Both the position numbers and the translations under genes were made by a program. 64,000 nt of DNA, taken from assembly GCF_900177765.1 (NCBI RefSeq), contig NZ_FXWI01000004.1:62001-126000 (forward strand), in the 5' to 3' direction. The notes beneath the pieces are model-generated. The model did not search any database. It was not told where the DNA came from and was given only the letters and a program-made list of their open reading frames with translations. The stretch is from Agreia sp. VKM Ac-1783 (lineage in GTDB: Bacteria > Actinomycetota > Actinomycetes > Actinomycetales > Microbacteriaceae). Shown one piece after another: positions 13,335 to 40,586 of this stretch (its first letter is position 1; every line of letters begins with the position of its first letter).

Positions 13335-14762
13335 ATGTCGCTCGACACACCCACATTCACGTCTTTCCCTCCAGGCTTCATCTGGGGCTCCGCCACGGCC
13401 GCCGCGCAGATCGAAGGGGCAGCCCACGAGGGCGGCAAAGATGACTCGGTGTGGGACGCGTTCGCTCGCGTGCCCAACGCGATCATCAACGGCGACACCC
13501 CCGAGGTCGCGGTCGACCACTACCACCGCTTCGCAGGCGATGTGGCGATCATGAAAGAGCTGGGCCTCGACTCCTACCGGTTCTCGACGAGCTGGTCGCG
13601 CATCAAGCCGGGCGACCGCGAATTCAACCGCACCGGGCTCGACTTCTACTCGCGCCTGGTCGACGACCTGCTCGAGGCCGGCATCCTGCCGTGGCTCACG
13701 CTGTATCACTGGGACCTGCCTCAGGTGGTCGAGGAACTCGGTGGATGGGCCAACCGCGACACCGCCTTCCGCTTCCGTGACTACGCCGAGGGCGTCTACG
13801 CGGTCCTCGGCGATCGCGTCGAGCACTGGACCACGTTCAACGAACCGTTCTGCTCGGCGCTGCTCGGCTACGGAGCCGGCGTGCACGCGCCGGGTCGCCG
13901 CGAGCCCCTCGCCGCGATCCAGGCCGTGCATCACCATCACCTCGCGCACGGTCTCGCCGTGAACCGCCTGCGCGAGCTCGGCGCGCAGAACCTGGGCGTC
14001 ACGTACAACCTGACCAACGCGATCCCAGCCGATGCCGCGGACCCCGTCGACCTCGACGCCGCGCGCCGCCTCGACGGCATGATGAACCGCATCTTCCTCG
14101 ACCCCGTGCTGCGTGGTGCCTACCCCGTCGATGTGGCCGACGATCTGGCGGCCGTCGGCATCCAGCTGTCTGAGATCGTGCACGACGGCGACCTCGAGAT
14201 CATCTCGGCGCCCATCGACTTCCTCGGCATCAATCACTATCACGACGATGTCGTGAGCGGACATCCGCTGGAGGCCGGCACCATCGACCCCCACCTCGTC
14301 GAGAACGGGCGGCCGCTGTCGTCGCCGTTCGTCGGCAGCGAGTTCCTGACCTTCCCGAGCCGCGGCCTGCCGCGCACCGCCATGGACTGGGAGGTGAACC
14401 CCGACGGTCTGCGGCACCTGCTGGTGCGCCTCGGTCACGAGTACCCGAACCTGCCGCCGCTGTACATGACCGAGAACGGCGCGGCCTACGACGACGTCGT
14501 GTCGCCCGACGGCGCCGTGCACGACCCCGAGAGGGCAGCCTTCATCCTGGCTCACGTGGCCGCCGTCGCCGAGGCGATCGCCGAAGGTGCGGATGTCCGT
14601 GGCTACTTCGTGTGGTCACTGCTCGACAACTTCGAGTGGGCCTGGGGCTACGACAAGCGCTTCGGCATCGTGCGCGTCGACTACGACTCGCAGGAGCGCA
14701 CGATCAAGGACTCGGGGCGCGCGTTCGCTGCCGTATTCGCTGGGCGGCCCGCGGCGGAGTAG
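13335..14762 (+). CDS. GH1 family beta-glucosidase
   Basis: Retaining glycosidase releasing terminal beta-glucosyl residues, probably cytosolic since no signal peptide is seen. The N-terminal signature FIWGSATAAAQIEG starts at residue 15. The acid/base Glu is in TFNEP (about E170), the nucleophile in MTENG (about E380), and the glycone-binding DNFEW is at about 431-435. The ATG at 13335 is preceded by GAGGAG at 12 nt and gives 475 residues. A leaderless ATG at 13287 is an alternative but would place the operator palindrome inside the coding region. Likely controlled through the adjacent palindrome. Confidence 0.95.
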   Translation: MSLDTPTFTSFPPGFIWGSATAAAQIEGAAHEGGKDDSVWDAFARVPNAIINGDTPEVAVDHYHRFAGDVAIMKELGLDSYRFSTSWSRIKPGDREFNRTGLDFYSRLVDDLLEAGILPWLTLYHWDLPQVVEELGGWANRDTAFRFRDYAEGVYAVLGDRVEHWTTFNEPFCSALLGYGAGVHAPGRREPLAAIQAVHHHHLAHGLAVNRLRELGAQNLGVTYNLTNAIPADAADPVDLDAARRLDGMMNRIFLDPVLRGAYPVDVADDLAAVGIQLSEIVHDGDLEIISAPIDFLGINHYHDDVVSGHPLEAGTIDPHLVENGRPLSSPFVGSEFLTFPSRGLPRTAMDWEVNPDGLRHLLVRLGHEYPNLPPLYMTENGAAYDDVVSPDGAVHDPERAAFILAHVAAVAEAIAEGADVRGYFVWSLLDNFEWAWGYDKRFGIVRVDYDSQERTIKDSGRAFAAVFAGRPAAE

Positions 14763-26468: not shown

Positions 26469-27428
26469 TCAGGCGGTCGTCCCTGCGCGCAGCGCCTCGG
26501 CGAAGAAGTCGAGCGACCGGGAGACCTCCGGCAGCGTCGGCGTGCGGTTCAGATGTCCGTGCAGCATTCCCGCCGCGAGCCGCGTCTCGACGGGAACGGC
26601 CACCTCGGCCAGCTGCTCGGCGAACAGCTCTCCCGACGGCCTGAAGTCGTCGTACTCGCTGATCAGGATGCGTGTGGCCGGGAACCCCTCGAGCGGCGCG
26701 TTGCCGGGAATCACCTCGGCCGGGAGGTCGGAGAGCCGCCCGGCGTAGTTGGCGAACATCGCGCTCACCGCCGAAGCGGGAGCCCGAAGCACCCGCGGCA
26801 GCGTCGTCATCACCGCGTGAACCTCGTCGTCGACCGAGGGAAGGGGGAAGTGGAGCGCCGGATAGGCGAGCAGCAGCGCCGCGGGAATCGGGCCGCCGTT
26901 GCCGCGCACCCGCACGACCGTCGCGGCGGCCAGGTTGGCCCCCGCGCTTCCGCCGCCGATCGCGATGCGGCGGGCATCCACCCCCAGGTCGTCGGCGTGA
27001 GCCGCAAGCCAGAGCCAGGCTGCCTCGACATCCTCGAGCGGAACCGGATAGCGAACGCCCGCGTTCGCGAGCCGGTAGCCGACGGCCACGACGAGGGCGC
27101 CCGATCGCGCGGCGAGCTCCGCGCCCACGACGTGGGACTCGTTCATGTCGAGGTCGCCTCCGACGAAGCCGCCGCCGTGGTTCCAGAGCAGCGCCGGCAC
27201 TGGGCCCGAAGCACCGACGGCCCGATACAGCCGCACCGGAATCGGTCCGTGCGGCCCCGGCACGACGTCGTCACGGATGTCCACCGACAGGGGAAGCTCG
27301 TATGGCGCCGGGTCGGTGAAGAACTCGGCATAGACGCGGGCGTTGTCCGGATCGGAGCGATCCGCGTTCCACGCAGGGTCGGTCGGGATGCTGCGCACCC
27401 TGTCGGCGAGGTGAGGGTCGAGGGGCAT
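26469..27428 (-). CDS. Alpha/beta hydrolase of the hormone-sensitive lipase (HSL) family
   Basis: 319-residue esterase. The oxyanion-hole HGGG is in LLWNHGGGFVGGDLDMNE, the nucleophile elbow is GGGSAGANLAA, the acid Asp is in ISEYDDFRPSGE and the His in AAGMLHGHLNR. No signal peptide, so cytosolic. It begins 2 nt after the stop of the GH1-phosphatase fusion and is the last gene of the importer operon. Likely removes an acyl group from the imported substrate, alongside the glycosidase; this is inference from context. Confidence 0.9.
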   Translation of the reverse strand: MPLDPHLADRVRSIPTDPAWNADRSDPDNARVYAEFFTDPAPYELPLSVDIRDDVVPGPHGPIPVRLYRAVGASGPVPALLWNHGGGFVGGDLDMNESHVVGAELAARSGALVVAVGYRLANAGVRYPVPLEDVEAAWLWLAAHADDLGVDARRIAIGGGSAGANLAAATVVRVRGNGGPIPAALLLAYPALHFPLPSVDDEVHAVMTTLPRVLRAPASAVSAMFANYAGRLSDLPAEVIPGNAPLEGFPATRILISEYDDFRPSGELFAEQLAEVAVPVETRLAAGMLHGHLNRTPTLPEVSRSLDFFAEALRAGTTA

Positions 27429-27430
27429 GA

Positions 27431-29605
27431 TCAGGCGACCATTTTTCGCCGGAGAGCAGTCAGATCCTCGGCGGAGAATCCGTGCGACCTCAGGTATTCC
27501 GTCACCGTGCCGTGGTCGTGCCGGATGACGCCGAGCACCTCTTCGATGAGCTCGCGGGGCGATGCGAGCAGGTCGTCGAGAACGGCATCCGGCACGGGCG
27601 ACCCGTCTGGCGACGTCAGTTGCATCAGCGACGACACCTCTGCCCGGAACCCGGCGCCGAGCAGGTCGCTCGATTCCGCGTAGGTGCGCACGATGTCGGC
27701 GTCGCGCACGCCGAGTGCGGCCAGCAGGATCGCCACGAAGACGCCCGTGCGATCCTTGCCCGCGGTGCAGTGGGCGAGCACCGCGCCCTGGGCGGCGGTG
27801 ATCGCGCGCAGCGCCTGAACGATCTCGTCGCCCCTGGTCTGCACGATCTGCCGGTAGATGGAGCCCAGTCCTGACTCACCGGAGTCGTCGGCCGCAGCAC
27901 CCACGAACAGGCCGGCCTCGGGGTCGGACGGTTCGTGCAGGGGGAGATGGATGAGTCGCGCGCCCTCGATCTCGTCGGGCGCCTGCGTCACCTCGGTCGT
28001 GCCGCGCAGATCGAGGATGGTATCGACCCCCAGCAGCGTCAGCGACCGCCGGCCGTCGAGCGTGATGCCGTGGAGTCCGGCCGTACGGAAGAACAGTCCG
28101 TCGTGCACCCGCCGACCGTCCATGGTCTCGAGCCCCCCGATGCCTCGGGCGTTGTGCACCCCGGCGATGTCGATACCCCTGTGGTCGCCGGCGGGCGAGG
28201 TCTCGACGGCAGCGGGCACCGCACCCGTGCGGACCACCTCTCGGTACCAGTCGAACGACGCTTTCGGCGTGCGAACAAGAGTGTCGGCGTCGACGTGGAT
28301 CAGCCCGAACCGTTGGGTGAAGCCGGCCATGTACTGCAGATTGTCGTGGCTCGACCAGGCGTGGTAACCGATGACTCGGGCGCCGTCGGCGATGGCGTCC
28401 GCGACCTCCTGAATCGCCCAGGTGAGATACCGGATGCGATGGGCGTCGTCGACGACGCCCGTCGCGTCGGGCGCGTCCGGGTATCCCACGCCGTTCTCGG
28501 TGATCACCACGTCGGGGTGATCAGGGTAGGTGGACCCCAACCAGTCGAGCGCCTCGCGGAGCCCGCCCGGTGTGAGCTGCCGGTGCGCCCCTCCCCAGGG
28601 CAGGCCGGGTGCCGGCACGATCGCGAAGCCGAGTCCGGCCGTCACGGGCGCGAATCCGCCGAACATCGCGGCTCTTACCGGGAGCTCGGCGAGGTGTGCC
28701 GCGGCGCGTTCGGAGGAGGCCACACTGTACGTGGAGTACCAGTTCACGCCCAGCACATCCATCGGCTGCGCGATCGTCTCGAGGTCGCCGTCGCGCACGA
28801 CGTCACCGAGCACGGCCTCGAGCTCCGGAAGGTGGCCGCGCCCCAGCATGGGGTCGAGGAAAAGCCGGCCGTCGAAGTACTCGGCGCGTTCGGCCGCGGC
28901 GATATCGTCGGGGTGACTCGTCGCCGGAACAACTCCGTTCATGCTGAGGATGGTGCCGATCCGCCCGGCCACGCCTGCCGCGCGCAGGGCGAGGATGGAC
29001 GTTCCGTGGGCGAGCAGCAGGTTATGCACGGTCGCCAGACCCGCGGCGCCCTCCCGTCGAGCGGGCGGCAGGAAGCCGGCGACGTAACCGGCGAGCGATG
29101 GATGGGTCGGCTCGTTCATGGTGAACCACTGCGAGACCCGGTCGCCCAGGCGCTCCCCCACCGCCGTGGCCAGCCGGCCGAAGTGCTCCGCGAAATCGCG
29201 GGTCATCATGCCGCCGAGGTCCTCCATCCACTGCGGTGTGTCCCAGTGATACAGGTTCAGGGCCGGCTCGATGCCGCGCTCCAGCAGGCCGTCGACCAGC
29301 CGCTCGTAGTAATCGAGCCCGGCCTCGTTGACCGTGCCCGTCGCATCCGTCACGATTCGCGGCCACGCCACCGAGAAGCGGTGGGCGCCCGCCCCCAGGC
29401 TCTTCAGCAGGTCGAGGTCTTCGGCGAGCCGGTGGTACTGGTCGATCGCGCGATCGCCGCTCGTTCCGTCGGGGGTCGTCAGACCGGAGTGCATCGCGGT
29501 GTCCCAGATCGACGGCACCTTGCCGTCGATGTTCCAGGCGCCCTCGACCTGGTACGCCGAGGTTCCGGTGCCCCAGGTGAAGCCTGCGGGGAAGGTGTTC
29601 GTCAT
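27431..29605 (-). CDS. Fusion of GH1 glycosidase and tyrosine phosphatase-like domain
   Basis: One uninterrupted 724-codon frame. Residues 1-460 are GH1: signature FTWGTGTSAYQVEGAW, acid/base E165 in MNEP and nucleophile E370 in VITENG. The glycone-binding motif is DNLQY instead of the usual DNFEW. Residues 476-724 are a Y_phosphatase3-type domain: NARGIGGLETMDGRRV, FFRTAGLHGIT, ILDLRGTTEV and the P-loop HCTAGKDRTG with C613 and R619. No start codon with a ribosome binding site separates the two. The ATG overlaps the ABC ATPase stop as ATGA. Context suggests it acts on a glycosylated, perhaps phosphorylated, imported compound. The fusion is seen directly; substrate is unknown. Confidence 0.93.
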   Translation of the reverse strand: MTNTFPAGFTWGTGTSAYQVEGAWNIDGKVPSIWDTAMHSGLTTPDGTSGDRAIDQYHRLAEDLDLLKSLGAGAHRFSVAWPRIVTDATGTVNEAGLDYYERLVDGLLERGIEPALNLYHWDTPQWMEDLGGMMTRDFAEHFGRLATAVGERLGDRVSQWFTMNEPTHPSLAGYVAGFLPPARREGAAGLATVHNLLLAHGTSILALRAAGVAGRIGTILSMNGVVPATSHPDDIAAAERAEYFDGRLFLDPMLGRGHLPELEAVLGDVVRDGDLETIAQPMDVLGVNWYSTYSVASSERAAAHLAELPVRAAMFGGFAPVTAGLGFAIVPAPGLPWGGAHRQLTPGGLREALDWLGSTYPDHPDVVITENGVGYPDAPDATGVVDDAHRIRYLTWAIQEVADAIADGARVIGYHAWSSHDNLQYMAGFTQRFGLIHVDADTLVRTPKASFDWYREVVRTGAVPAAVETSPAGDHRGIDIAGVHNARGIGGLETMDGRRVHDGLFFRTAGLHGITLDGRRSLTLLGVDTILDLRGTTEVTQAPDEIEGARLIHLPLHEPSDPEAGLFVGAAADDSGESGLGSIYRQIVQTRGDEIVQALRAITAAQGAVLAHCTAGKDRTGVFVAILLAALGVRDADIVRTYAESSDLLGAGFRAEVSSLMQLTSPDGSPVPDAVLDDLLASPRELIEEVLGVIRHDHGTVTEYLRSHGFSAEDLTALRRKMVA

Positions 29606-30396
29606 GCGGTGTCTCTCTTCTCGGAGTAATCGGGGATTCGTGGCGCTGCCTCGAGCAGCTGGCGGGTGTAGGAGTGCTGCGGGGCCGAGATGACGCTCTC
29701 GGTGTCGCCGCTCTCGACGATGCGCCCATCGCAGAGCACAGACACCGAGTCGGCGATCATGCGCACCACGGCGAGGTCGTGCGAGATGACGAGCAGGCTG
29801 AGGCCGACCTCGTCGCGCAGATCGGCGAGCAGGTTGAGCACGCGGGCCTGCACCGAGACGTCGAGCGACGAGACGGGTTCGTCGCAGAGAAGCAGCGCGG
29901 GGCGGGCCACAAGCGCACGCGCGATGGCGACCCGCTGCGCCTGACCGCCCGACAGCGTGCCCGGGCGCGCATCCGCGAAACGGTCGGGATCGAGGCCGAC
30001 GCGGGCGAGCAGCTCGCGCGCGGTCTCGCGGCGCTGGCGGCGTGTTCCCTCGCCGCGGATGGTGAGCGGCTCGGCGACGATGGCGATCGTGGAGCGGTGC
30101 GGGTTGAGTGAGGAGATCGGATCCTGGAAGACCATCTGCACGGGGTGGTCGGCTCCGCCGTCGTCGATGTGCACCGAGCCGGAGCGCGGCCTCTGGAGGC
30201 CGAGGATCGTTCGGGCGAGTGTCGACTTGCCCGAGCCCGACTCGCCGACCAGCCCGACGCATCCGCCGGCCGGCACACGCAGACTCACGCCGTCGAGCAC
30301 GATGCGGTCGCCGTAGCCGACCACGAGGTCGTCGACCGCGAGCAGGTCCCGGGGAGTGGACTCGGTGTGATGGGTCGGATCGATGGAATCGGTCAT
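29602..30396 (-). CDS. ABC importer ATPase, DppF/OppF type
   Basis: Energises the oligopeptide-type importer of this operon. Walker A GESGSGKSTL, Q-loop MVFQDPISSLNP, signature LSGGQAQRVAIARAL, Walker B LLLCDEPVSSLDV and H-loop VISHDLAVV are all present. The ATG at 30396 is chosen because it overlaps the previous ATPase stop as ATGA; the open frame upstream is an out-of-frame read of that gene. 264 residues, slightly short because the C-terminal OppF extension is reduced. Confidence 0.94.
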   Translation of the reverse strand: MTDSIDPTHHTESTPRDLLAVDDLVVGYGDRIVLDGVSLRVPAGGCVGLVGESGSGKSTLARTILGLQRPRSGSVHIDDGGADHPVQMVFQDPISSLNPHRSTIAIVAEPLTIRGEGTRRQRRETARELLARVGLDPDRFADARPGTLSGGQAQRVAIARALVARPALLLCDEPVSSLDVSVQARVLNLLADLRDEVGLSLLVISHDLAVVRMIADSVSVLCDGRIVESGDTESVISAPQHSYTRQLLEAAPRIPDYSEKRDTA

Positions 30397-31265
30397 GAGA
30401 GTGCTCCGGTCTCGGGCACGCGGAGCCGTCTGAGACGGGGCCCGTCGAGCCGCGGGATGCTGTCGAGAAGTGCTCGGGTGTAGGGGTGCGACGGAGCGGC
30501 GATGACCTCGGCCGTGATGCCCGCCTCGACGATGCGGCCGGCCCGCATAACGATGATCTCGTCGCACCGCTCGGCGGCGACTCCGAGGTCGTGGGTCACG
30601 AGCAGCATGCTCGACCCGGTTCGCTCGCGGGTCTCCTGCATAAGATCGAGAACACGCTTCTGCACGGTGACGTCGAGCGCCGTCGTGGGCTCGTCTCCGA
30701 TGATCAGGGCGGGCTCCGTCAGCGCGGCCGCGCCGATGCCGATGCGCTGGCGCTGCCCACCAGACAACTGGTGCGGGTAGCGACGCGACTCGTCCTCCGA
30801 GTTGCGGAAGCCGACGCTGCGCATGAGCTCGACACCTCGTGCCGCCCGGTCGCGGCGAGTCGAGCGCCCCGTGAACGCCAGGGTCTCTGTGAGCTGCTCG
30901 CCCACCCTGATCGTGGGGTTGAGTGAGCGCAGCGGGTCCTGGTGGATCATGCCCACGCTCGCCGCGAGCGCCCTCCGGCGCTCGCGGCCGCGGAGCCGCA
31001 GCATGTCGTGCCCGTCGAGCCGCACCTCGCCCGTGACGCGCATGGTGACGCCCGGCGGATGAACGCCCAGGATCGAGCGGATGAGCATGGACTTGCCGGC
31101 ACCGGACTCGCCGACGATGCCGAGCGATCGCCCGCGGGCAAGCGAGAAGGTCACGCCCTCGATCACGGGGCGCTCGCTGCCGTGGCGCTGCACGGTGGCG
31201 GTGAGGTCGCGCACCTCGAGAATCAAATCATTCGAGCTGATGGTCTTCATCGCTTCACGGTTCAT
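30393..31265 (-). CDS. ABC importer ATPase, DppD/OppD type
   Basis: 290 residues. Walker A is GESGAGKSMLI with Met after the Lys-Ser, Q-loop MIHQDPLRSLNP, signature LSGGQRQRIGIGAAL-like, Walker B ALIIGDEPTTALDV and the H-loop LLVTHDLGVAAERCD. The C-terminal HPYTRALLDSIPRLDG is typical of the OppD/F family. ATG at 31265 overlaps the permease stop as ATGA. Pairs with the following ATPase to form the heterodimer of the importer. Confidence 0.94.
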   Translation of the reverse strand: MNREAMKTISSNDLILEVRDLTATVQRHGSERPVIEGVTFSLARGRSLGIVGESGAGKSMLIRSILGVHPPGVTMRVTGEVRLDGHDMLRLRGRERRRALAASVGMIHQDPLRSLNPTIRVGEQLTETLAFTGRSTRRDRAARGVELMRSVGFRNSEDESRRYPHQLSGGQRQRIGIGAAALTEPALIIGDEPTTALDVTVQKRVLDLMQETRERTGSSMLLVTHDLGVAAERCDEIIVMRAGRIVEAGITAEVIAAPSHPYTRALLDSIPRLDGPRLRRLRVPETGALS

Positions 31266-32134
31266 CGCTTCGCCTCTCGGAGGTGTTCGCCGAGCACGTT
31301 GATCGACAGGATGGTGGCGCAGAGGAGCAGCGCGGGCATCAGCGTGACCCACGGCGCGAGGGCGAGCTGCGTGCGGCCCTCGGCGATGAGCCCTCCCCAG
31401 GAGGGCTCGGGCGGCCGCAGGCCGAATCCGAGAAAGCTCAGGGCGCCCTCGGCGACGATCGCGGTGGCGAGGGTGGTGAGCACGAACGGCATCAACGCCG
31501 GCAGCACCCCGGGCAGCACCTCACGGGTGAGAATACGCCATCCGCTCGCACCGAGCGTGCGGGCGACCACAACGTGGTTCTCGGTCGCGACCGCGAGGGT
31601 CGCGCTGCGGCCGAGGCGGGCGAACACGGGGATGGCGAAGGCGGCGATCGTGAGCGCGATCGTCGGAAGGCTGGGGCCGGCGAGGGTGACGATCGTGGCG
31701 ACGATGATCAGCGACGGCAGGGCGATCGTGACGTCCGTCACGAAGCCCGTGATCGCATCCGCAATACCGCGCCGCAGGCCGGCCCACACGCCGAGCAGGA
31801 TGCCCAGGCCGCCGCCCACGGTCACGGTCACCAGCGCGACGATGGCGCTGGCGCCTGCCCCGTGCAGGGAGCGGGAGAAGACGTCGCGACCGAGGTTGTC
31901 GGTGCCGAACGGGTGGGCGAGGCTCGGTGCCTGGCTGATGACGGCGTAGTCGTTGGCGAGCGGATCGGCGGTGAGGCCGGCGGCGGCCGCAAGCGCGCCG
32001 ACGGCCAGGACGGCGAGCCACGCGACCGCGATGGTCACGCCCACACGCGGTATGCGGAGGCGGCTGGCCGATGAAGCGGATGCGGTCGATGGGAGCGGCA
32101 CGACGTTCGGCGACGCCAGGTCAGACAGGGACAC
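31262..32134 (-). CDS. ABC importer permease, DppC type
   Basis: 290-residue integral membrane subunit. Six membrane segments are visible, with an N-terminal one at about 33-53, and HPFGTDNLGRDVFSRSLHGA, the hallmark of DppC/OppC proteins. The EAA loop is seen around VVARTLGASGWRILTREVLP. Its start lies 14 nt inside the end of the DppB-type permease gene. Conducts the substrate across the inner membrane with its partner. Confidence 0.94.
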   Translation of the reverse strand: MSLSDLASPNVVPLPSTASASSASRLRIPRVGVTIAVAWLAVLAVGALAAAAGLTADPLANDYAVISQAPSLAHPFGTDNLGRDVFSRSLHGAGASAIVALVTVTVGGGLGILLGVWAGLRRGIADAITGFVTDVTIALPSLIIVATIVTLAGPSLPTIALTIAAFAIPVFARLGRSATLAVATENHVVVARTLGASGWRILTREVLPGVLPALMPFVLTTLATAIVAEGALSFLGFGLRPPEPSWGGLIAEGRTQLALAPWVTLMPALLLCATILSINVLGEHLREAKR

Positions 32135-33071
32135 GGGTGCTCCTCGGATCGATGCGGCTGACGGCGATGTCGGCGAGAATGCCGAACACCACCACGATTA
32201 CTGCGGCGAAGAGCACGACGCCCTGAATGACCGGCAGGTCTCTCGCTCCGAGGGCACTGACGGTGAGGCGGCCCAGTCCGGGGATCGCGAACAGGCTCTC
32301 GACGAGAAGCGTTCCCCCGAGCGAGACCCCGAGGCTGATCGCCACGAGCGCCACCAGGGTGGGCGACGAGGGGCGCAGGATCCGCCGCCAGAGCAACTGC
32401 GAGTCGGATGCGCCGCGCACGATCGACGCGTAGGCATAGGGGGCGCGCAGTGCCTCGATGGCCGAGCCGCGGAGTGCGCGAACGTAGACGGCGCCCTCTG
32501 CGATTCCCAGGGTCAGCACGGGCAGCACCATCCGTGAGAGGTTGCCCGCCGGATCCTCGGCGAACGGCGTGTAGCCCGAGGCGGGGAGCCACCCGAGCTG
32601 CACCGCGAAGAACTGGATCATCAGGATGCCGACGACGAACGACGGCACGGCGAGCAGCAGGAAGGTGCCGGTCGACACGATGCGGTCGAGACGCCCGCCG
32701 ACGGCGCGCGCGCTGTGCAGGGCGAGAGGAATGGAGATGGCGAGGGCCACGACCTGGCTCAGAATGACGAGCTCGGCGGTGGCCGGCACTCGGGAGAGGA
32801 TCTCCGACAGCACGGGGCGACCCGAGGTGAACGAGGTGCCCCAGTCGCCCGTCACGACACCGCCCACGAACGAGACGAAGCGCACGAAGGCGTTCTGGTC
32901 GAGACCCAGCGTGTGGCGCAGGGCCTCACGCTGGGCCTCGGTCGATTCCTGTCCGAGGAGAACGAGCGCCGGGTCGCCGGGCAGGAGAACGGCGAGCTGG
33001 CAGGTGAGCGCCGCGATGACGACCAGCACGAGCAGCGATCGTCCTGCGCGCGGCAACCAGGCGAAGGTCAT
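32121..33071 (-). CDS. ABC importer permease, DppB type
   Basis: 316 residues. N-terminal TM followed by LGQESTEAQREALRHTLGLDQNAFVRF, the conserved extracytoplasmic region of DppB/OppB, and FVGGVVTGDWGTSFTSGRPV. Five more membrane segments and the EAA loop at APYAYASIVRGASDSQLLWRRILRP complete the fold. Its ATG overlaps the stop of the binding-protein gene as ATGA, so the transporter is translated as a coupled set. Confidence 0.94.
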   Translation of the reverse strand: MTFAWLPRAGRSLLVLVVIAALTCQLAVLLPGDPALVLLGQESTEAQREALRHTLGLDQNAFVRFVSFVGGVVTGDWGTSFTSGRPVLSEILSRVPATAELVILSQVVALAISIPLALHSARAVGGRLDRIVSTGTFLLLAVPSFVVGILMIQFFAVQLGWLPASGYTPFAEDPAGNLSRMVLPVLTLGIAEGAVYVRALRGSAIEALRAPYAYASIVRGASDSQLLWRRILRPSSPTLVALVAISLGVSLGGTLLVESLFAIPGLGRLTVSALGARDLPVIQGVVLFAAVIVVVFGILADIAVSRIDPRSTRVPV

Positions 33072-34609
33072 TCTGCAGCCCAGCCGATCGTCGACGGCTG
33101 CACCGAGATGAGGGTGAGTCCGGTGAGGTCGGGGAACCCTGCGAGCTTGTTAGAGCCGATGAGGCCGGCATTGCTCGCGGTGAGCCAGAGCATGGGCAGG
33201 TCGGTGGCGAGGTGGTCGGACGCGTCGGCGAGCAGCGCAGACCGTTCGCTTCCGTCGGTGAGCCCGCTGGCCTGCTTCAGCAGCTGGTCGACATCGTCGT
33301 TGGCGTAGCCCGTGAAATTGTACGGGCCGGTCGAGGTCGCCACGAGCGCTCCGCCCGAGGGGTCGGAGAAGATCGAGGTGACCAGCTGGGCGGCCTCGAA
33401 GTCCTTCGCGGTGAGCGTGGAGAGGAACGAGGCGCCCTCGACGGGCACGATCTCGACGTCGACGCCGGCCTCGCCGAGCATGTCCTTGACCGCCGTCGCG
33501 CGCTGGATCGAGTCGGGAGAGTTGTCGGAGGTGATGGAGAAGCTGAGCCCCGCCCCCTCGAGCACCTTCTTCGCGGCCTCGAGGTCGTACTCGGGGTAGT
33601 CGACCTTGGGGGCCGCATCACCGAGGAGGCTGTACGGGCTGTCGACCGGCGTTCCCTCGCCGAGGTTCACGACGGCGTTGACGGCGTCGCGGTCGATCGC
33701 CTGCGCGAGGGCGGTGCGCACCTTCACATCGGCGAACTTGGGGCTCGAGAGGTTCAGCAGCAGGCTGCTCACGGCGGCGGGTTCTGCATGAACCTGCAGC
33801 GAGTCGTCGGCCCTGGCCTGCTCGAACTGGCTGGTCACCTCGGTCCAGATGAGGTCGACGTCGCCCGACTGCAGGCTCTGGAAGCGGGAGTCGGCATCCG
33901 GCATCATGCGGAAGGTGATGCTGTCGAGCGTCGCGGGCTCACCCCAGTAGTTGTCGTTGCGGACGACCGTGACCGAGTCGCCCGGCGTGAAGTCCTTGAC
34001 GACGAAGGGGCCGGCGCCGAGCGGGAACCCGAACTCGTCGGTCGCCGTGGTCGACGTGATCATGCCGAGGGTCCGGGCGAGCAGGGAGGTGAAGTCGGCG
34101 TTGGGCGCCTTCAGGTCGAAGACCATGGTGGTGTCGTCGGTGATCGTCATCGCGCTGATCTGGGCAGCCTGCCCGGCCGCCGAAGACTTGGATGCCGGAT
34201 CGGCCAGGCGCTCCACGTGGGCCTTGACCGACGCGGTCGTCAGCGGCGAGCCGTCTGAGAAGGTGACATCGTCGGGAAGGGTCAGCGTCCAGTGGGTGGC
34301 GGTCTCGTCGGATTCGAGCGACTTGGCGAGCCCCGGGGTGAATGTTCCCCCGGCGGCGGGTGCCATCAGTGGCTCGTACAGGGCGTTGGAGAGAATGAGC
34401 ACGGGCTGCGTGGCGAGCAGTCCGTTCGTCACGTCGAGTGTCGGAAGCTCCCTGTCGAGGGCGACGGTGAGAGTGCCGCCCGGAGCGGCGGTGCGGGTGT
34501 CGGCGCCGTCGCCGGTGGCGCCGGTGGCCGGGCCGCTGCACGCCGTGAGCGCGAGCGACCCGATGATCGTGGCTGCGATAAGGGCGCTGGATGCCCTGCG
34601 TCGGAACAT
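33068..34609 (-). CDS. ABC importer solute-binding lipoprotein, SBP family 5 (DppA/OppA type)
   Basis: 513 residues. Signal peptide MFRRRASSALIAATIIGSLA with lipobox LTAC (Cys 24) anchors it to the outer face of the membrane. The family 5 fold is recognisable from LTVALDRELPTLDVTNGL, FTPGLAKSLESDETATHWTLTL and DGSPLTTASVKAHVERL. The ATG at 34609 has AGGAGG 6 nt upstream; an open frame further upstream is ignored. First gene of the seven-gene operon ending at 26469. Ligand could be a peptide, a glycoside or another oligomer. Confidence 0.94.
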   Translation of the reverse strand: MFRRRASSALIAATIIGSLALTACSGPATGATGDGADTRTAAPGGTLTVALDRELPTLDVTNGLLATQPVLILSNALYEPLMAPAAGGTFTPGLAKSLESDETATHWTLTLPDDVTFSDGSPLTTASVKAHVERLADPASKSSAAGQAAQISAMTITDDTTMVFDLKAPNADFTSLLARTLGMITSTTATDEFGFPLGAGPFVVKDFTPGDSVTVVRNDNYWGEPATLDSITFRMMPDADSRFQSLQSGDVDLIWTEVTSQFEQARADDSLQVHAEPAAVSSLLLNLSSPKFADVKVRTALAQAIDRDAVNAVVNLGEGTPVDSPYSLLGDAAPKVDYPEYDLEAAKKVLEGAGLSFSITSDNSPDSIQRATAVKDMLGEAGVDVEIVPVEGASFLSTLTAKDFEAAQLVTSIFSDPSGGALVATSTGPYNFTGYANDDVDQLLKQASGLTDGSERSALLADASDHLATDLPMLWLTASNAGLIGSNKLAGFPDLTGLTLISVQPSTIGWAAE

Positions 34610-34674: not shown

Positions 34675-34690
34675 GTGGCACCAGTGCCAC
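34675..34690. promoter_or_regulatory. Operator copy 1 in importer/TetR divergent region
   Basis: GTGGCACCAGTGCCAC: 7-bp inverted arms around a 2-bp centre. A second copy differing only in the last base lies at 34722-34737, 47 bp centre to centre. Probably bound by the divergent TetR protein and placed to control the importer operon. Confidence 0.7.
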
Positions 34691-34721: not shown

Positions 34722-34737
34722 GTGGCACCAGTGCCAG
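34722..34737. promoter_or_regulatory. Operator copy 2 in importer/TetR divergent region
   Basis: GTGGCACCAGTGCCAG repeats the 34675 site in the same orientation. Between the two sites is a direct repeat GTGAACGGAAGGTGAACG. The pair of sites suggests cooperative binding and control of both divergent promoters. Confidence 0.7.
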
Positions 34738-35656: not shown

Positions 35657-36400
35657 TTACCCCGCGGACCGCCCGCCGTCGATCGCCCAGATCTGGCCCG
35701 TAATGTGCGGGGCGAGTGCATCGTCTGCAAGGAACGCCACGACGTTTGCCACATCGCTCGGCTCTCCAAGTCGACCCTGAGGAACCTGGCTCTCGAGCAT
35801 GTGGAGCACGTCCGGGTCACTCCCGTCGAGAATCGGCGTGCGCGTCACGCCCGGAGCGACCGCATTGACTCGGATGCCCTGCTGCGCATACTCGAGGGCC
35901 GCTGTGCGTGTCATCATGACGCTGGCCCCTTTCGACGTGATGTAGCCGCTGGAGTAGGGTGTCGCCCGGAAGCCACCGATCGAAGCCGTGTTCACGACTG
36001 CGCCACCACCACTGGCCAACATAAGACGCAAGCCCGCTTGCAACACCATGTACGCGCCTCGGACATTTACTGCCATCACTGCATCGAACGCTTCGATGGG
36101 GTACTCATGGGTGAGAGCCTGCGGCCCGCCGATACCGGCGTTATTGGCGAGTACATCCAAGCCGCCGTACGTTTCAGTGATCCACGTTTCGAGCTCGAGA
36201 ACGCTCTGCTGCGAACTGACGTCCAACGTCCGGGCCACCGCCGGAGAACCGAGAGCAGCAGCGACGGCATCCTGCTTTCCGCTTACATCTGCAACGATCA
36301 CCGTCGCGCCCTCGTGAGCGAGCTTCATGGCGATAGCTTCGCCAAGCCCCGATCCGGCACCGGTCACCAATGCAACCTTGCCTTCGAACTGACTCGTCAT
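35657..36400 (-). CDS. Short-chain dehydrogenase/reductase (SDR)
   Basis: 247-residue classical SDR using NAD(P)H. Cofactor loop TGAGSGLGEAIA at about 13-24, the Asp in VIVADVSG suggesting NAD(H), NNAG near 88, catalytic Ser in NTASIGG and the YxxxK motif as YITSK. C-terminal DGGRSAG. GAGAGG lies 8 nt before the ATG. Divergent from a MarR gene only 17 nt away, so the MarR protein probably controls it through the palindrome at 36449. Substrate unknown. Confidence 0.92.
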   Translation of the reverse strand: MTSQFEGKVALVTGAGSGLGEAIAMKLAHEGATVIVADVSGKQDAVAAALGSPAVARTLDVSSQQSVLELETWITETYGGLDVLANNAGIGGPQALTHEYPIEAFDAVMAVNVRGAYMVLQAGLRLMLASGGGAVVNTASIGGFRATPYSSGYITSKGASVMMTRTAALEYAQQGIRVNAVAPGVTRTPILDGSDPDVLHMLESQVPQGRLGEPSDVANVVAFLADDALAPHITGQIWAIDGGRSAG

Positions 36401-36417
36401 TGTGCCAACCTCTCTTT

Positions 36418-36921
36418 ATGGCCATCTCTGAACAGACAGCGGCAGATATAACCTTAGGTTACTTACGGCGCACCGAGCGAATTCTTCCGCACGACATCGG
36501 AGTCGCGGCGACCAGGTTTCAACGCGCGCTGGCCCAGGTGGTCGGAGCCGCGCTGAAACCGTTCGACCTGACCCCTGCCGAATACGGGATCTTCGACCAC
36601 GTCCACTCCAACCCGGGCGTGAGCAATGCCGAACTGGCGCGGTATCTGCTCATCACACCGCAGGCACTCGGCCGAATGAGCACCCGCCTGCAAAAGCGAG
36701 GCTACATTCGACGCGCTCCCGCAAAGGGGGGTCGCCGCGAACCCATCGAAGTAACGGAAGAGGGTTTGGAACTGCTGCAACGAATCGAACCGCTCGTCGA
36801 CACGGCGTTGGGGACGCTGCTCGAGAACCTCGAGGCGGCCGACATCTCTGTGTTATTTCGCACCCTCACCACGGCGGTCGATTCCGTTAGCTCCCACAAG
36901 AGCGAGACACAATTCGTCTGA
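36418..36921 (+). CDS. MarR family regulator
   Basis: 167 residues. Winged helix: LTPAEYGIFDHVHSNPGVSNAELARYLLITPQALGRMSTRLQKRGYIRRAP followed by the wing GGRREPIEVTEEG. Long N-terminal and C-terminal dimerisation helices. ATG at 36418 without a clear ribosome binding site. Divergent from the SDR gene. The palindrome TAACCTTAGGTTA falls within codons 11-15 and about 50 bp upstream of the SDR start, so it may bind within its own coding sequence. Confidence 0.9.
   Translation: MAISEQTAADITLGYLRRTERILPHDIGVAATRFQRALAQVVGAALKPFDLTPAEYGIFDHVHSNPGVSNAELARYLLITPQALGRMSTRLQKRGYIRRAPAKGGRREPIEVTEEGLELLQRIEPLVDTALGTLLENLEAADISVLFRTLTTAVDSVSSHKSETQFV
36449..36461. promoter_or_regulatory. Possible MarR operator inside the MarR coding sequence
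   Basis: TAACCTTAGGTTA is a perfect palindrome around one central base, A/T-rich in a GC-rich genome. On the minus strand it overlaps a TATATC box suitable for the SDR promoter. MarR proteins typically bind such short inverted repeats. Confidence 0.55.
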
Positions 36922-36939
36922 AAGGCAGGTGGCTACCGC

Positions 36940-39198
36940 TTACAGAGCGGCCTCAGGCCCTTCGTCAGTCGGGGTCAATGCGATTCTGAGCTCCTCCGTC
37001 ATCTCCTGGTCAAGAATCCGCGGGAGCCGCGAAACCGGCAGCGACTCGACCATTCGAAGAGTCTCAAGATGCTGAGCTGCAGTGTACCCGGTCAAGCGCT
37101 CGAGTGCGTTCAGAAGGCGCTCACGGCTGGCCGGGTCCCTCAACCATTGCCCCACAGGCGAATCCATAGTCAAGGAGTACGTCAAGACCTCCCCTTCCAG
37201 CCACATGTCTCCTGTTAGGCGAATGTCTCGGGATGAGGACCCGACACGAATCTCGAACCGGCCCTGCTCCACGTGCCATCGCCCGAGCTCCTGATGCCAG
37301 TATGAGAACGCCCTGCTGTCAAGCTCGATCGTCACTCTTCGGCTTTGCCCGGGCTCGAGCAGAATCTTCGTGAAGCCCTGGAGTTCTTGCGCCGGCCGGT
37401 CGACCGTACTTTCGGTATCGCTCACATATAACTGCACGACCTCTTTGCTGCTCCGGCTCCCCTCATTCGTCACAGTAAGGCTCACGCGCGTCTCTCCTGT
37501 GACAGAGTCCAGGACATCTACCTCGAGATCGGAATACGCAAATGAGGTGTAGCTCAAACCATGCCCAAACGGGAAGGCGACATCCACCTCAACCGAATCG
37601 AAGTACCGATAACCCACGTAGATTCGCTCGCCGTACAACACGTCGGAGCTCGTTCCCGGAAAATTCAACTGCGCCGGGGAATCCTTCAGCCGCCGCGGGA
37701 TAGTCTCCGCCAAACGCCCGCCCGGAGAGGAGATGCCGAAAAGCAAGTGAGCAGCCGCAGAACCGGAAGCCTGACCACCCAACCACATTTCGAGAATCGC
37801 GTTGCTGTAGGGGATGAGTTCACCCGCGGAGACGATACCTCCATTGGACAGGACCACGGCGACCTGAGGCGTCACGGAGGCGACAGCCTTCAGGAGTTCA
37901 CGCTGCTTCGCGGGAATGTTCAGCCCCGTGCGGTCGAAGCCTTCGGACTCATCGGCGTCAGGCAGGCCGAGGAACATGACGGCGATTCCCGCATTCTCTG
38001 CAGCGGCGACAGCCTCTTCGAGGAGCCGCTCATCGTTGTCCTCGTCGTCGAGCGTGAAGCCCGCAGAAAATGTCACCGTTCCTCCGCCGCCCACGAGCTG
38101 CCGTATCTCATCCAACGCTGAATCCACTCGCGTAGGAACGACGCGAGAGCTGCCGGCGCCTTGAAATCTGGGGGTGCGCGCAAACTCGCCAATGACCGCA
38201 ATGCTCGCGTCGAGCGGCAAGGGAAGCAATCCCTCGTTCTTGAGGAGTACTGCCGAATCTACAGATGCTCGACGAGCCAGGTCATGGTGTGCATCGAAGT
38301 CGACCGCCTCGGGAGCGTGGGAGCGAACTGAAACTAATCGGTCAAGCGTGCTGAGTTGACGGCCGACGGCGCGGTCGACGATGGACTCACTGAGCGACCC
38401 CGCCCTCACTGCTTCTCGTACGGCTGACGCACCGTCGCCACCATCAGCCGGCATACTCAGATCGAGACCGGCCGCTACCGCGGCTACAGGATCGACCACG
38501 GCCGCCCAGTCTGAAACGACGTAGCCGTCGAAGCCCCAATCCTTGCGGAGAACATCGCTCAGAAGCCAGGTATTCTCTGACGCGTAAATGCCGTTGATCT
38601 TGTTGTACGAGCACATGACCGTAGCCGGGTCGGCTTTGCGGACGACCTTCTCGAAAGCAGGAAAATAGATCTCGCGCAACGTCCGCTCGTCAACATTGCT
38701 ACTCACCATCATTCGGTTTGTCTCTTGATTGTTCGCCGCGAAGTGTTTGACAGAAGCGCCCACGCCGTGGGACTGCACGCCCTGCACCCAGGCAGCTCCC
38801 AACACTCCCGACACGAACGGGTCTTCGGAGAAGTACTCGAAGTTGCGGCCGCATAACGGCGAGCGTTTGATATTTACTCCCGGCCCGAGGAGAACATCGA
38901 CTCCAAGATTGCGGGCCTCGGCCCCCAGCGCCGATCCGATTTCGCTCAATAGCTCGGGGTCGAATGACGAGCCGAGAGCGGAGCCGGTGGGGAACGCCGT
39001 GGCTGGTGCACTCCCTCCGATGCCGAGGTTGTCCACCTCCTCCCCCTGCAGTCGCACTCCGTGTGGGCCATCCGTCAGGGTCGACGAGGGGATGCCCAGT
39101 CTCGGAACAGCGACCGTGTGCCAGAAGCTGAGGCCGGTGAGCATCTCCGTTTTCTCGTCAAGGGTCAGATCCGATACTCGGTCCGAGAGGGTACCCAT
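36940..39198 (-). CDS. GH3 family beta-glucosidase/glycosidase with fibronectin III-like domain
   Basis: 752 residues, cytosolic (no signal peptide). The TIM-barrel half contains LTDGPHGVRL, NIKRSPLCGRNFEYFSEDP, KHFAANNQETNR and the nucleophile Asp of GYVVSDWAAV (about D230). The alpha/beta sandwich follows with LLKNEGLLPL and GAGSSRVVPT, then a C-terminal fibronectin III-like domain (TVTNEGSRSSKEVVQLYV). ATG at 39198 is chosen; AAGGAG lies 11 nt upstream. Follows the MFS carrier at 39294 with 95 bp between, suggesting uptake then hydrolysis of a glycoside. Confidence 0.95.
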   Translation of the reverse strand: MGTLSDRVSDLTLDEKTEMLTGLSFWHTVAVPRLGIPSSTLTDGPHGVRLQGEEVDNLGIGGSAPATAFPTGSALGSSFDPELLSEIGSALGAEARNLGVDVLLGPGVNIKRSPLCGRNFEYFSEDPFVSGVLGAAWVQGVQSHGVGASVKHFAANNQETNRMMVSSNVDERTLREIYFPAFEKVVRKADPATVMCSYNKINGIYASENTWLLSDVLRKDWGFDGYVVSDWAAVVDPVAAVAAGLDLSMPADGGDGASAVREAVRAGSLSESIVDRAVGRQLSTLDRLVSVRSHAPEAVDFDAHHDLARRASVDSAVLLKNEGLLPLPLDASIAVIGEFARTPRFQGAGSSRVVPTRVDSALDEIRQLVGGGGTVTFSAGFTLDDEDNDERLLEEAVAAAENAGIAVMFLGLPDADESEGFDRTGLNIPAKQRELLKAVASVTPQVAVVLSNGGIVSAGELIPYSNAILEMWLGGQASGSAAAHLLFGISSPGGRLAETIPRRLKDSPAQLNFPGTSSDVLYGERIYVGYRYFDSVEVDVAFPFGHGLSYTSFAYSDLEVDVLDSVTGETRVSLTVTNEGSRSSKEVVQLYVSDTESTVDRPAQELQGFTKILLEPGQSRRVTIELDSRAFSYWHQELGRWHVEQGRFEIRVGSSSRDIRLTGDMWLEGEVLTYSLTMDSPVGQWLRDPASRERLLNALERLTGYTAAQHLETLRMVESLPVSRLPRILDQEMTEELRIALTPTDEGPEAAL

Positions 39199-39293
39199 GT
39201 GATTGTGTTCTCCTTGATGTTCAGGCGGTAGTTGAGACAGAGCTGTTCGTAAGGCCACACCGTCGGATGACCGCTGAACTGATACGGAAGGTC

Positions 39294-40586
39294 CTAACGA
39301 GCGGACTTCACGCGGGTGATCGTTAGTGCCCCGAGTGCGCCGAGGAGGGCGCCCCCAAGAAAGAGCCCGGGGTAGCCGAAGGCATTGATAAGTACCGGGG
39401 CGCCAGCCGGGACAAGCGATTGAGGCAGCGCCTGAGCGATATTCACCACTCCAAGGTCCTTGGCCGTGTCTTCGGCACTCGGCAGGATATCCGAGATAAG
39501 GGCAAGTTCTACCGCGAGGAATGCACCCAAGCCAGCGCCGAGCACGACCTGGCTCACGAGAAGTTGAGAAAAGTCATTTGCGAACGCCATGAGCACGAGC
39601 CCGATGACGACCGCGATCGCCGAGAGGATGACGAAAGGCTTGCGACGACCGAGTTTGTCGCTCAACCAGCCCAGGAGAACAGTCATGACGATGACGCCGA
39701 CGCCGTTCGCGAGTGTCGCCTGGAAGACAAGGTTGGGAGTTTCGGCCTCGGACACCCCAAGATGATCGATGAGAAAAAGAGGTAGGTAACTTCCACCTGC
39801 GGTTCCCGCCGCGATCATCAAAAAACGTGTGAGCCACGCCCATCCGAGGTCAGGGTACTTTCGCGGATTGAAGACGAATGACATGAACAGGACCTTGACT
39901 CCGAAGGCCTCGGGTGATCGCTCGGCTCGGACCTTGTCTTTCATCGGCAGAACAAAAGCGAACATCAATGCGAGGCCGATAGCACTGGGAAGCAGGCTCT
40001 GCGTCAATCCTGCAGGAATCAGCTGGACCAGGAATGTTGCGACGACCGATCCGAAATTCTGAGAGAGGCTGACGAAGGAAGCGACTCGACCGCGGCGACT
40101 CGACCTAACCTGGTCGGGAAGCATGGCGATGAGCGCCGCGAGAGCGAAGTTGAAACCGACTTGAGCGAGTGAAAAGCCTGCCACGACCCCGACCACATTC
40201 GGCGCGAGGCCGGTAGCGATGATCCCGGCGTATCCGATCCCGGAGCCGATGACAATCCAGATCTTGCGCATCCCGAATCGGCTCATCGAACGGTCTGACA
40301 GCCGCCCGCCGATCGGATTGGCCACAAAGGCGAAGAGCGCACTGATGCCGAGCACGAGACTGAAGTTCCCCGCGACGTTCTGCGGTTCCAACTCATTGAG
40401 TCGGAGCGCGATCGTTACGAGCATGGGCGCCAGAAGCGCGACCATCAGGCCCAGCATTGCTATGGGGATCGCAATCATGGGGTAGAGCGCCTGAGGCACG
40501 GCACCGACGCTTCTCGTCTCGGGCATCCTCGAGAGCGGGAAAGCGGGTGTTTCGCCTAGCGGTGATGATGCGCGGGGTTCGTCCAC
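39294..40586 (-). CDS. MFS transporter, probably for a glycoside or sugar
   Basis: 430 residues with 12 membrane segments. The cytoplasmic loop motif is GGRLSDRSMSRFGMRKIWI after TM2 and LLGWLSDKLGRRKPFVI after TM8. It lacks the extra two TMs of the DHA2 exporters in this window and resembles sugar carriers of the SLC45/GPH-like MFS. GTG start with GAGGAG 5 nt upstream. Probably co-transcribed with the GH3 gene downstream and controlled by the divergent TetR gene. Substrate inferred from context. Confidence 0.88.
   Translation of the reverse strand: MDEPRASSPLGETPAFPLSRMPETRSVGAVPQALYPMIAIPIAMLGLMVALLAPMLVTIALRLNELEPQNVAGNFSLVLGISALFAFVANPIGGRLSDRSMSRFGMRKIWIVIGSGIGYAGIIATGLAPNVVGVVAGFSLAQVGFNFALAALIAMLPDQVRSSRRGRVASFVSLSQNFGSVVATFLVQLIPAGLTQSLLPSAIGLALMFAFVLPMKDKVRAERSPEAFGVKVLFMSFVFNPRKYPDLGWAWLTRFLMIAAGTAGGSYLPLFLIDHLGVSEAETPNLVFQATLANGVGVIVMTVLLGWLSDKLGRRKPFVILSAIAVVIGLVLMAFANDFSQLLVSQVVLGAGLGAFLAVELALISDILPSAEDTAKDLGVVNIAQALPQSLVPAGAPVLINAFGYPGLFLGGALLGALGALTITRVKSAR

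Follow-up and report, generated by a model that had tools for sequence, protein, structure and literature searches.

Why should a glycosidase and a phosphatase be joined in one polypeptide? The question is raised by a minus-strand gene in a 64,000-nt stretch of the genome of Agreia sp. VKM Ac-1783 (the window, in whose positions all its coordinates are given), which encodes a GH1 domain followed by an ALP-type Y_phosphatase3 domain in 724 codons with no internal stop. As the initial annotation had proposed, both domains are found by Pfam in this single frame: Glyco_hydro_1 (PF00232) scores 422.5 bits against a cut-off of 22.6 and is aligned over profile positions 2-450 of 453, and Y_phosphatase3 (PF13350) scores 182.9 bits against a cut-off of 22.2. 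The glutamates E165 (in NEP) and E370 (in ENG) and the phosphatase stretch from C613 to R619 (within HCTAGKDRTG) stand at the positions first given for them. That annotation knew of no characterized GH1/phosphatase fusion, and no paper on one was found in the open-access literature. Both halves are members of known families; the new parts are the domain architecture and a Gln/Phe residue pair in the GH1 half. We lean, with somewhat better than even confidence, towards a cytoplasmic bifunctional hydrolase that belongs to a TetR-controlled import-and-degrade operon and acts on an imported glycoside carrying a phosphate or other anionic group. Because the activities are always fused in the full-length copies found and are accompanied by a specific importer, there is good evidence that the two serve one task.

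The fusion is rare but not confined to one genome. With the whole protein as query and up to three candidates scored per genome, full-length in-frame fusions were found in 5 of 299 family genomes, the window's own included, in four genera. The other four are 87% (Agreia pratensis VKM Ac-2510; G278, locus L091), 81% (G037), 77% (Glaciihabitans tibetensis CGMCC 1.12484; G122, locus L090) and 62% (G017) identical to the window protein. The remaining family matches listed concern the GH1 part at 39-45% identity, some with a short run-on past a stop. A sequencing or frame artefact, which the initial annotation had allowed for as a stop or frameshift between the domains, is ruled out because four further genomes carry the fusion in frame. 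It had also allowed for orthologues always encoded as two genes; no split version was seen, in large searches that scored the best two to five candidates per genome (up to nine in a phosphatase-only search) and could therefore miss one. The linker region holds several GTG codons that might serve as a separate start for the phosphatase, but inspection by eye showed a convincing ribosome site at none of them.

Three genus samples contained the fusion in 2 of 8, 1 of 3 and 1 of 6 genomes. In samples of the order (396 genomes, E <= 1e-80) and the class (345 genomes, E <= 1e-125), which lacked the other four carriers and were scored for two or three candidates in each genome, it was found in the window's own genome only. 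Nocardia stercoris has a broken remnant (L134, 9914-10752), which retains the final helix of GH1 and the linker, followed by a phosphatase broken across two frames, most of GH1 being missing; the search of its family (201 genomes, E <= 1e-60) gave 35 genomes with GH1-only matches, no fusion and no full-length copy. This patchy distribution suggests horizontal transfer or repeated loss. A plasmid-borne module was considered and rejected, as no place in 72,556 plasmid records covered at least 80% of the query by tblastn. A GH1 scan of viral contigs returned one fragment.

Judging from substitution rates, both domains are under purifying selection. Over ten pairs of fusions, the ratio of nonsynonymous to synonymous substitution rates (dN/dS, NG86) is 0.08-0.24 for GH1 and 0.15-0.43 for the phosphatase, whose ratio is the greater one in all ten; the values for distant pairs, with dS near or above 1, are rough. 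This faster evolution of the phosphatase is what would be expected if two operon genes had fused without sharing a substrate, both domains being active and the phosphatase acting as a general scavenger or detoxifier of phospho-metabolites. Tightly packed neighbouring genes would make such a fusion easy, and Pho16B, a characterized soil ALP enzyme, is described as promiscuous in the available text of its report (PMC6409689). We nevertheless hold this explanation to be rather unlikely, given that no split version was found, that identity to the window's phosphatase part is 50-86% among the other fusions as against 40% or less among the stand-alone relatives listed in the phosphatase-only search, and that three aspartates of the domain are replaced in every fusion, as described below.

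The GH1 half was compared between the five fusions and 41 unfused relatives, namely those of 44 loci tried that gave more than 380 aa uninterrupted after cutting at the first stop. The full set of GH1 residues first claimed for it holds in part. The catalytic E165 and E370 are kept in 5/5 fusions and 41/41 relatives, and most glycone residues are canonical, Gln19, His120, Trp121, Asn164, Tyr290 and Trp417 being unchanged. However, the glycone-binding Glu of the DNFEW motif, present in all 41 relatives, is Gln424 in every fusion, and a Trp found in all 41 relatives is Arg342 in every fusion. The fusions also have Trp289, where relatives have Tyr, His or Thr, and His341, where relatives have Gly, Asp or Glu; in four of the five, Tyr425 takes the place of Trp. 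Arg342 presumably lies on the aglycone side. With Gln424 and Arg342 a negative charge of the glycone site is lost and a positive one added, and we infer that the pocket would therefore suit an anionic or substituted sugar.

These changes set the protein apart from two specificity classes of GH1. With the beta-glucosidases (PF00232; TIGR03356) it shares the fold family, both catalytic glutamates and the six unchanged residues named above, but it differs from them by Gln424, Arg342, the attached phosphatase and a score of 427.1 bits for the TIGR03356 (BGL) equivalog, below the cut-off of 478.5. According to the available text of a study of GH1 specificity, 99% of sequences with Glu at the position equivalent to 424 have Phe at that equivalent to 433, and 99% of those with Tyr at the latter have Ser at the former, 6-phospho-beta-glucosidases among them (PMC4013033). 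All five fusions have Gln424 and Phe433, which is neither pair. With the 6-phospho-beta-glucosidases/galactosidases the fusion has in common the GH1 family and a change at the same glycone position, whereas these enzymes have Ser and, nine residues on, Tyr (451/460 in Sf beta-gly numbering; PMC4013033), and the fusion scores far below the cut-offs of their NCBIfam models. An ordinary 6-phospho-beta-glucosidase is thus ruled out by the residue pair. A second GH1 gene in the window (13362-14738) has the canonical DNFEW motif.

The phosphatase half has its nearest known relatives among the ALP phosphatases (Y_phosphatase3, PF13350), which comprise PtpB, the Listeria and Leishmania members, Pho16B and the C. 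difficile PTP 8dhi; it differs from them in that it sits behind a GH1 domain, has no signal peptide that we could see and has the three common aspartates replaced. Its fold is assigned as PtpB-like. In the comparison, the five fusions were set against 63 stand-alone rows, made up of 27 whole-genome loci and 36 of the 77 stand-alone loci among the best 80 of 571 relatives; L134 was left out of the alignment because of its stop. The P-loop reads HCTAGKDRTG in 5/5 fusions, in agreement with HCXXGKDR[TA]G, and His612, Cys613, Lys617, Asp618, Arg619 and Asp532 are kept in all five. The N-terminal part had been described as having the usual blocks of the family; the domain is indeed present, but its block reads NARGIGG in place of the N-x-RD-x-GG of most relatives. 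Gly488 and Ala509 occur in all five fusions and position 641 is Thr in four (Thr641 in the window) and Ser in one, where 51, 52 and 61 of the 63 unfused rows, respectively, have Asp. Such a loss might have turned the domain into a sensor of a phosphate ligand or a structural add-on that binds without cleaving. This seems highly improbable, since the P-loop, His612 and Asp532 are kept throughout, and the P-loop Asp and Lys are, in the available text of PMC3091653, residues that matter in catalysis and binding. Moreover, two stand-alone rows, L092 (Bifidobacterium commune) and L094, have the same Gly and Ala, and these two changes are therefore not tied to fusion alone.

The fusion gene is the sixth of seven in an operon that runs from a substrate-binding protein through two permeases and two ATPases to the fusion and an esterase, with a TetR gene opposite (Table 1). 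The cassette is complete in A. pratensis and G. tibetensis. The substrate-binding protein, by eye a probable lipoprotein, has NikA-like proteins as best matches, under their cut-offs; it was found in 4 of the 299 family genomes (E <= 1e-60), all of them carriers of the fusion. Neither a kinase nor a phosphodiesterase family was found among the operon proteins scanned. Two TGGCACCAGTGCCA palindromes lie in the divergent promoter, between the TetR and substrate-binding protein genes, and are likely candidates for the TetR operator. Allowing up to two mismatches, the pattern has four matches in the window, which are the two sites on both strands, against 0.38 expected, and 1 of 100 shuffles reached four; this figure is no fair test, because the pattern was derived from the very place tested. 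Recurrence is the better evidence: A. pratensis and G. tibetensis each have two such palindromes at the same 47-bp spacing, with 0-1 mismatches on the better strand, and G017 has one. A promoter scan gave no sigma-70-like site. Just past the TetR and SDR genes, at 36000-40000, the GC content drops from 0.66-0.71 to 0.59-0.61, perhaps the sign of a segment with a different origin; there (36940-39258) a GH3 gene has as its best NCBIfam match exo-alpha-(1->6)-L-arabinopyranosidase, at 832.3 bits below the cut-off of 1300.

Table 1. Features of the fusion gene and its operon, in window positions
Feature	Position	Strand	Remarks
GH1/Y_phosphatase3 fusion gene	27431..29605	minus	724 aa, stop included; ATG at 29605, TGA ends 27431
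GH1 domain, residues 2-460	28226..29602	minus	Pfam
E165 (GH1)	29111-29113	minus	
Arg342 (GH1)	28580-28582	minus	
E370 (GH1)	28496-28498	minus	
Gln424 (GH1)	28334-28336	minus	
Y_phosphatase3 (ALP-type) domain, residues 478-723	27437..28174	minus	Pfam
P-loop H612-R619 (Y_phosphatase3)	27749-27772	minus	
Alpha/beta hydrolase (Abhydrolase_3, hormone-sensitive-lipase-like esterase)	26469..27428	minus	ATG 2 nt past the fusion stop
ABC ATPase 2 (Opp/Dpp/Nik type)	29602..30396	minus	stop overlaps the fusion start by 4 nt (ATGA); start codon assigned here
ABC ATPase 1	30393..31352	minus	longest open reading frame; true start probably further in
ABC permease C (BPD_transp_1)	31262..32134	minus	
ABC permease B (BPD_transp_1)	32121..33071	minus	
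Substrate-binding protein (SBP_bac_5)	33068..34609	minus	start codon assigned here
Palindrome TGGCACCAGTGCCA, copy 1	34676..34689		likely TetR operator
Palindrome TGGCACCAGTGCCA, copy 2	34723..34736		likely TetR operator; 47 bp from copy 1
TetR-family regulator, 201 aa	34787..35392	plus	TetR_N 54 bits; divergent from operon; start codon assigned here

The surroundings of stand-alone phosphatase relatives also bear on the substrate. The best 80 of the 571 relatives were taken as loci, two intact fusions and the broken one included. In 39 of the 80, the phosphatase gene lies between genes for a substrate-binding protein and a metallophosphoesterase, mostly in Ugp-like import cassettes; among the rest, 23 are downstream of smpB, 5 are partial and 13 have other settings (the three fusion loci among these). 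An RpiR match accompanies 34 of the 39, an ATPase 28 and both permeases 30, and 25 have all of these, some of the contigs being short. Near-identical copies in hosts of different names (99.6-100% identity over 2.2 kb) make up thirteen of the 39, which brings the distinct cases to 27. These copies (L143, L144, L146, L148-L152, L155-L159), nine of them without an ATPase match, are titled Microbacterium, Brevibacterium, Herbiconiux, Leucobacter, Microcella and Arthrobacter and point either to a recent transfer by a mobile element or to contamination. The cassette of L074 (5129-13668) has an RpiR regulator, a UgpC-like ATPase, a substrate-binding protein, Y_phosphatase3, a metallophosphoesterase, UgpA/E-like permeases and a histidine phosphatase; its ATPase scores above the UgpC cut-off, UgpA/UgpE are the best matches of both permeases, though below cut-off, and the best model for the metallophosphoesterase, also below cut-off, is 3′,5′-cAMP phosphodiesterase. 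Ugp imports glycerol-phosphate compounds, and the RpiR/Ugp-like/Y_phosphatase3 cassette looks like an uncharacterized system for import and cleavage of phospho-compounds. Such cassettes (L074, L097) resemble the window operon in combining an importer, an ALP phosphatase and another hydrolase, but unlike it they have a Ugp/MalK-type transporter, RpiR and a metallophosphoesterase, and no GH1 match. In a smaller third setting (L085, L086, L087, L109), stand-alone Y_phosphatase3 genes lie beside Opp/Nik-type ABC operons, with varying sets of genes for a CMD-domain protein, an alpha/beta hydrolase, an amidase or an arginase.

The alternative named in the initial annotation is a sensing or regulatory role, in which the domain would dephosphorylate a lipid, or a protein that is itself a transporter or regulator, to tune uptake while GH1 served as an anchor or sugar sensor. 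Against it, stand-alone relatives repeatedly lie in import cassettes together with a metallophosphoesterase, a setting that fits small phospho-substrates. A precedent for such activity exists, as phosphoinositides are substrates of the ALP members from Mycobacterium, Listeria and Leishmania, and MptpB also accepts protein, according to the available text of PMC3091653. The operon proteins scanned contain no kinase, however, and TetR with its repeated palindromes already offers regulation, so that this role seems quite improbable.

In the bifunctional hydrolase that we favour, the substrate-binding protein and the Opp/Nik-type ABC transporter would import a glycoside bearing an ester together with phosphate or another anionic substituent, and the esterase would take off the acyl group as a third bond. 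GH1, its pocket altered by Gln424 and Arg342, would cleave the beta-glycosidic bond with retention, with Glu165 as acid/base and Glu370 as nucleophile. The phosphatase would remove the phosphate by way of a phospho-enzyme at Cys613, the phosphate being bound by Arg619 and Lys617 and Asp618 serving as acid/base; the fusion would hold the two activities near each other and at a constant ratio, and TetR would leave its two palindromes on binding an intermediate. The initial annotation's suggestion that one imported compound may lose both a sugar and a phosphate is partly supported: it fits the coupling to an ABC-import operon, the esterase, the charge loss at the glycone site and the Ugp-like relatives, although the residue pair differs from the one in 6-phospho-beta-glucosidases. 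As guesses at the substrate, teichoic-acid fragments or acylated plant glycosides would also be compatible. By analogy, the nearest precedent is probably agrocinopine catabolism, in which a cluster C binding protein (AccA) and an ABC transporter (AccBCDE) import a sugar phosphodiester, AccF cleaves it and AccG is a putative phosphatase (PMC4526662). Both systems couple an ABC importer to co-encoded hydrolases for a phosphate-bearing sugar; however, AccF (phosphodiesterase) and AccG are separate proteins and the available text of that source names no GH1 enzyme, whereas the activities in the window are fused. The window's substrate-binding protein matches AccA entries weakly, at 60-64 bits, and NikA and others score better.

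Several observations weigh against this proposal. First, since the Ser/Tyr pair is absent, the known rule does not indicate a glycone 6-phosphate (available text of PMC4013033). Second, the three aspartates common in stand-alone phosphatases are lost. Third, G037 keeps an intact fusion but has lost the substrate-binding protein, permease B, the first 75 or so codons of permease C, the first 15 or so of TetR and the palindromes between them, through a deletion (at about 13871 of L071) that brings permease C (remaining from about codon 76) up against TetR (remaining from about codon 16 of 201); the fusion may therefore serve without this importer. Fourth, tblastn gave no esterase match in the 20 kb read around the fusion of G017. 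Fifth, the smpB-linked relatives (such as L075, 6393-9669), 19 directly downstream of this trans-translation gene and 4 more within about 2.1 kb, are not import-linked; an ABC ATPase, which we take to be FtsE, lies further upstream. Finally, the AlphaFold2 model of the fusion has a predicted template modelling score (pTM) of 0.44 and a predicted local distance difference test score (pLDDT) below 50 over much of GH1, because only three fusion rows were available for that half, and no domain arrangement was deduced from it.

The fusion and its importer offer a direct handle on an uncharacterized substrate and on the role of the environmental branch of the PtpB-like phosphatases, and the Gln/Phe pair is a testable addition to the GH1 specificity rule. 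PtpB-like enzymes appear mainly as virulence-linked in the available literature, yet many relatives of this phosphatase sit in nutrient-import cassettes. More specifically, though we think it unlikely, the operon might define a pathway for a phosphate-bearing natural beta-glycoside, in which a Gln424/Phe433/Arg342 pocket reads a substituted glycone and the attached phosphatase takes off the phosphate within the same polypeptide. This pocket would then join Glu/Phe (beta-glucosidases) and Ser/Tyr (6-phospho-beta-glucosidases) as a third solution, and its substrate would be a hitherto unrecognized phospho-glycoside from soil, plants or microbes.
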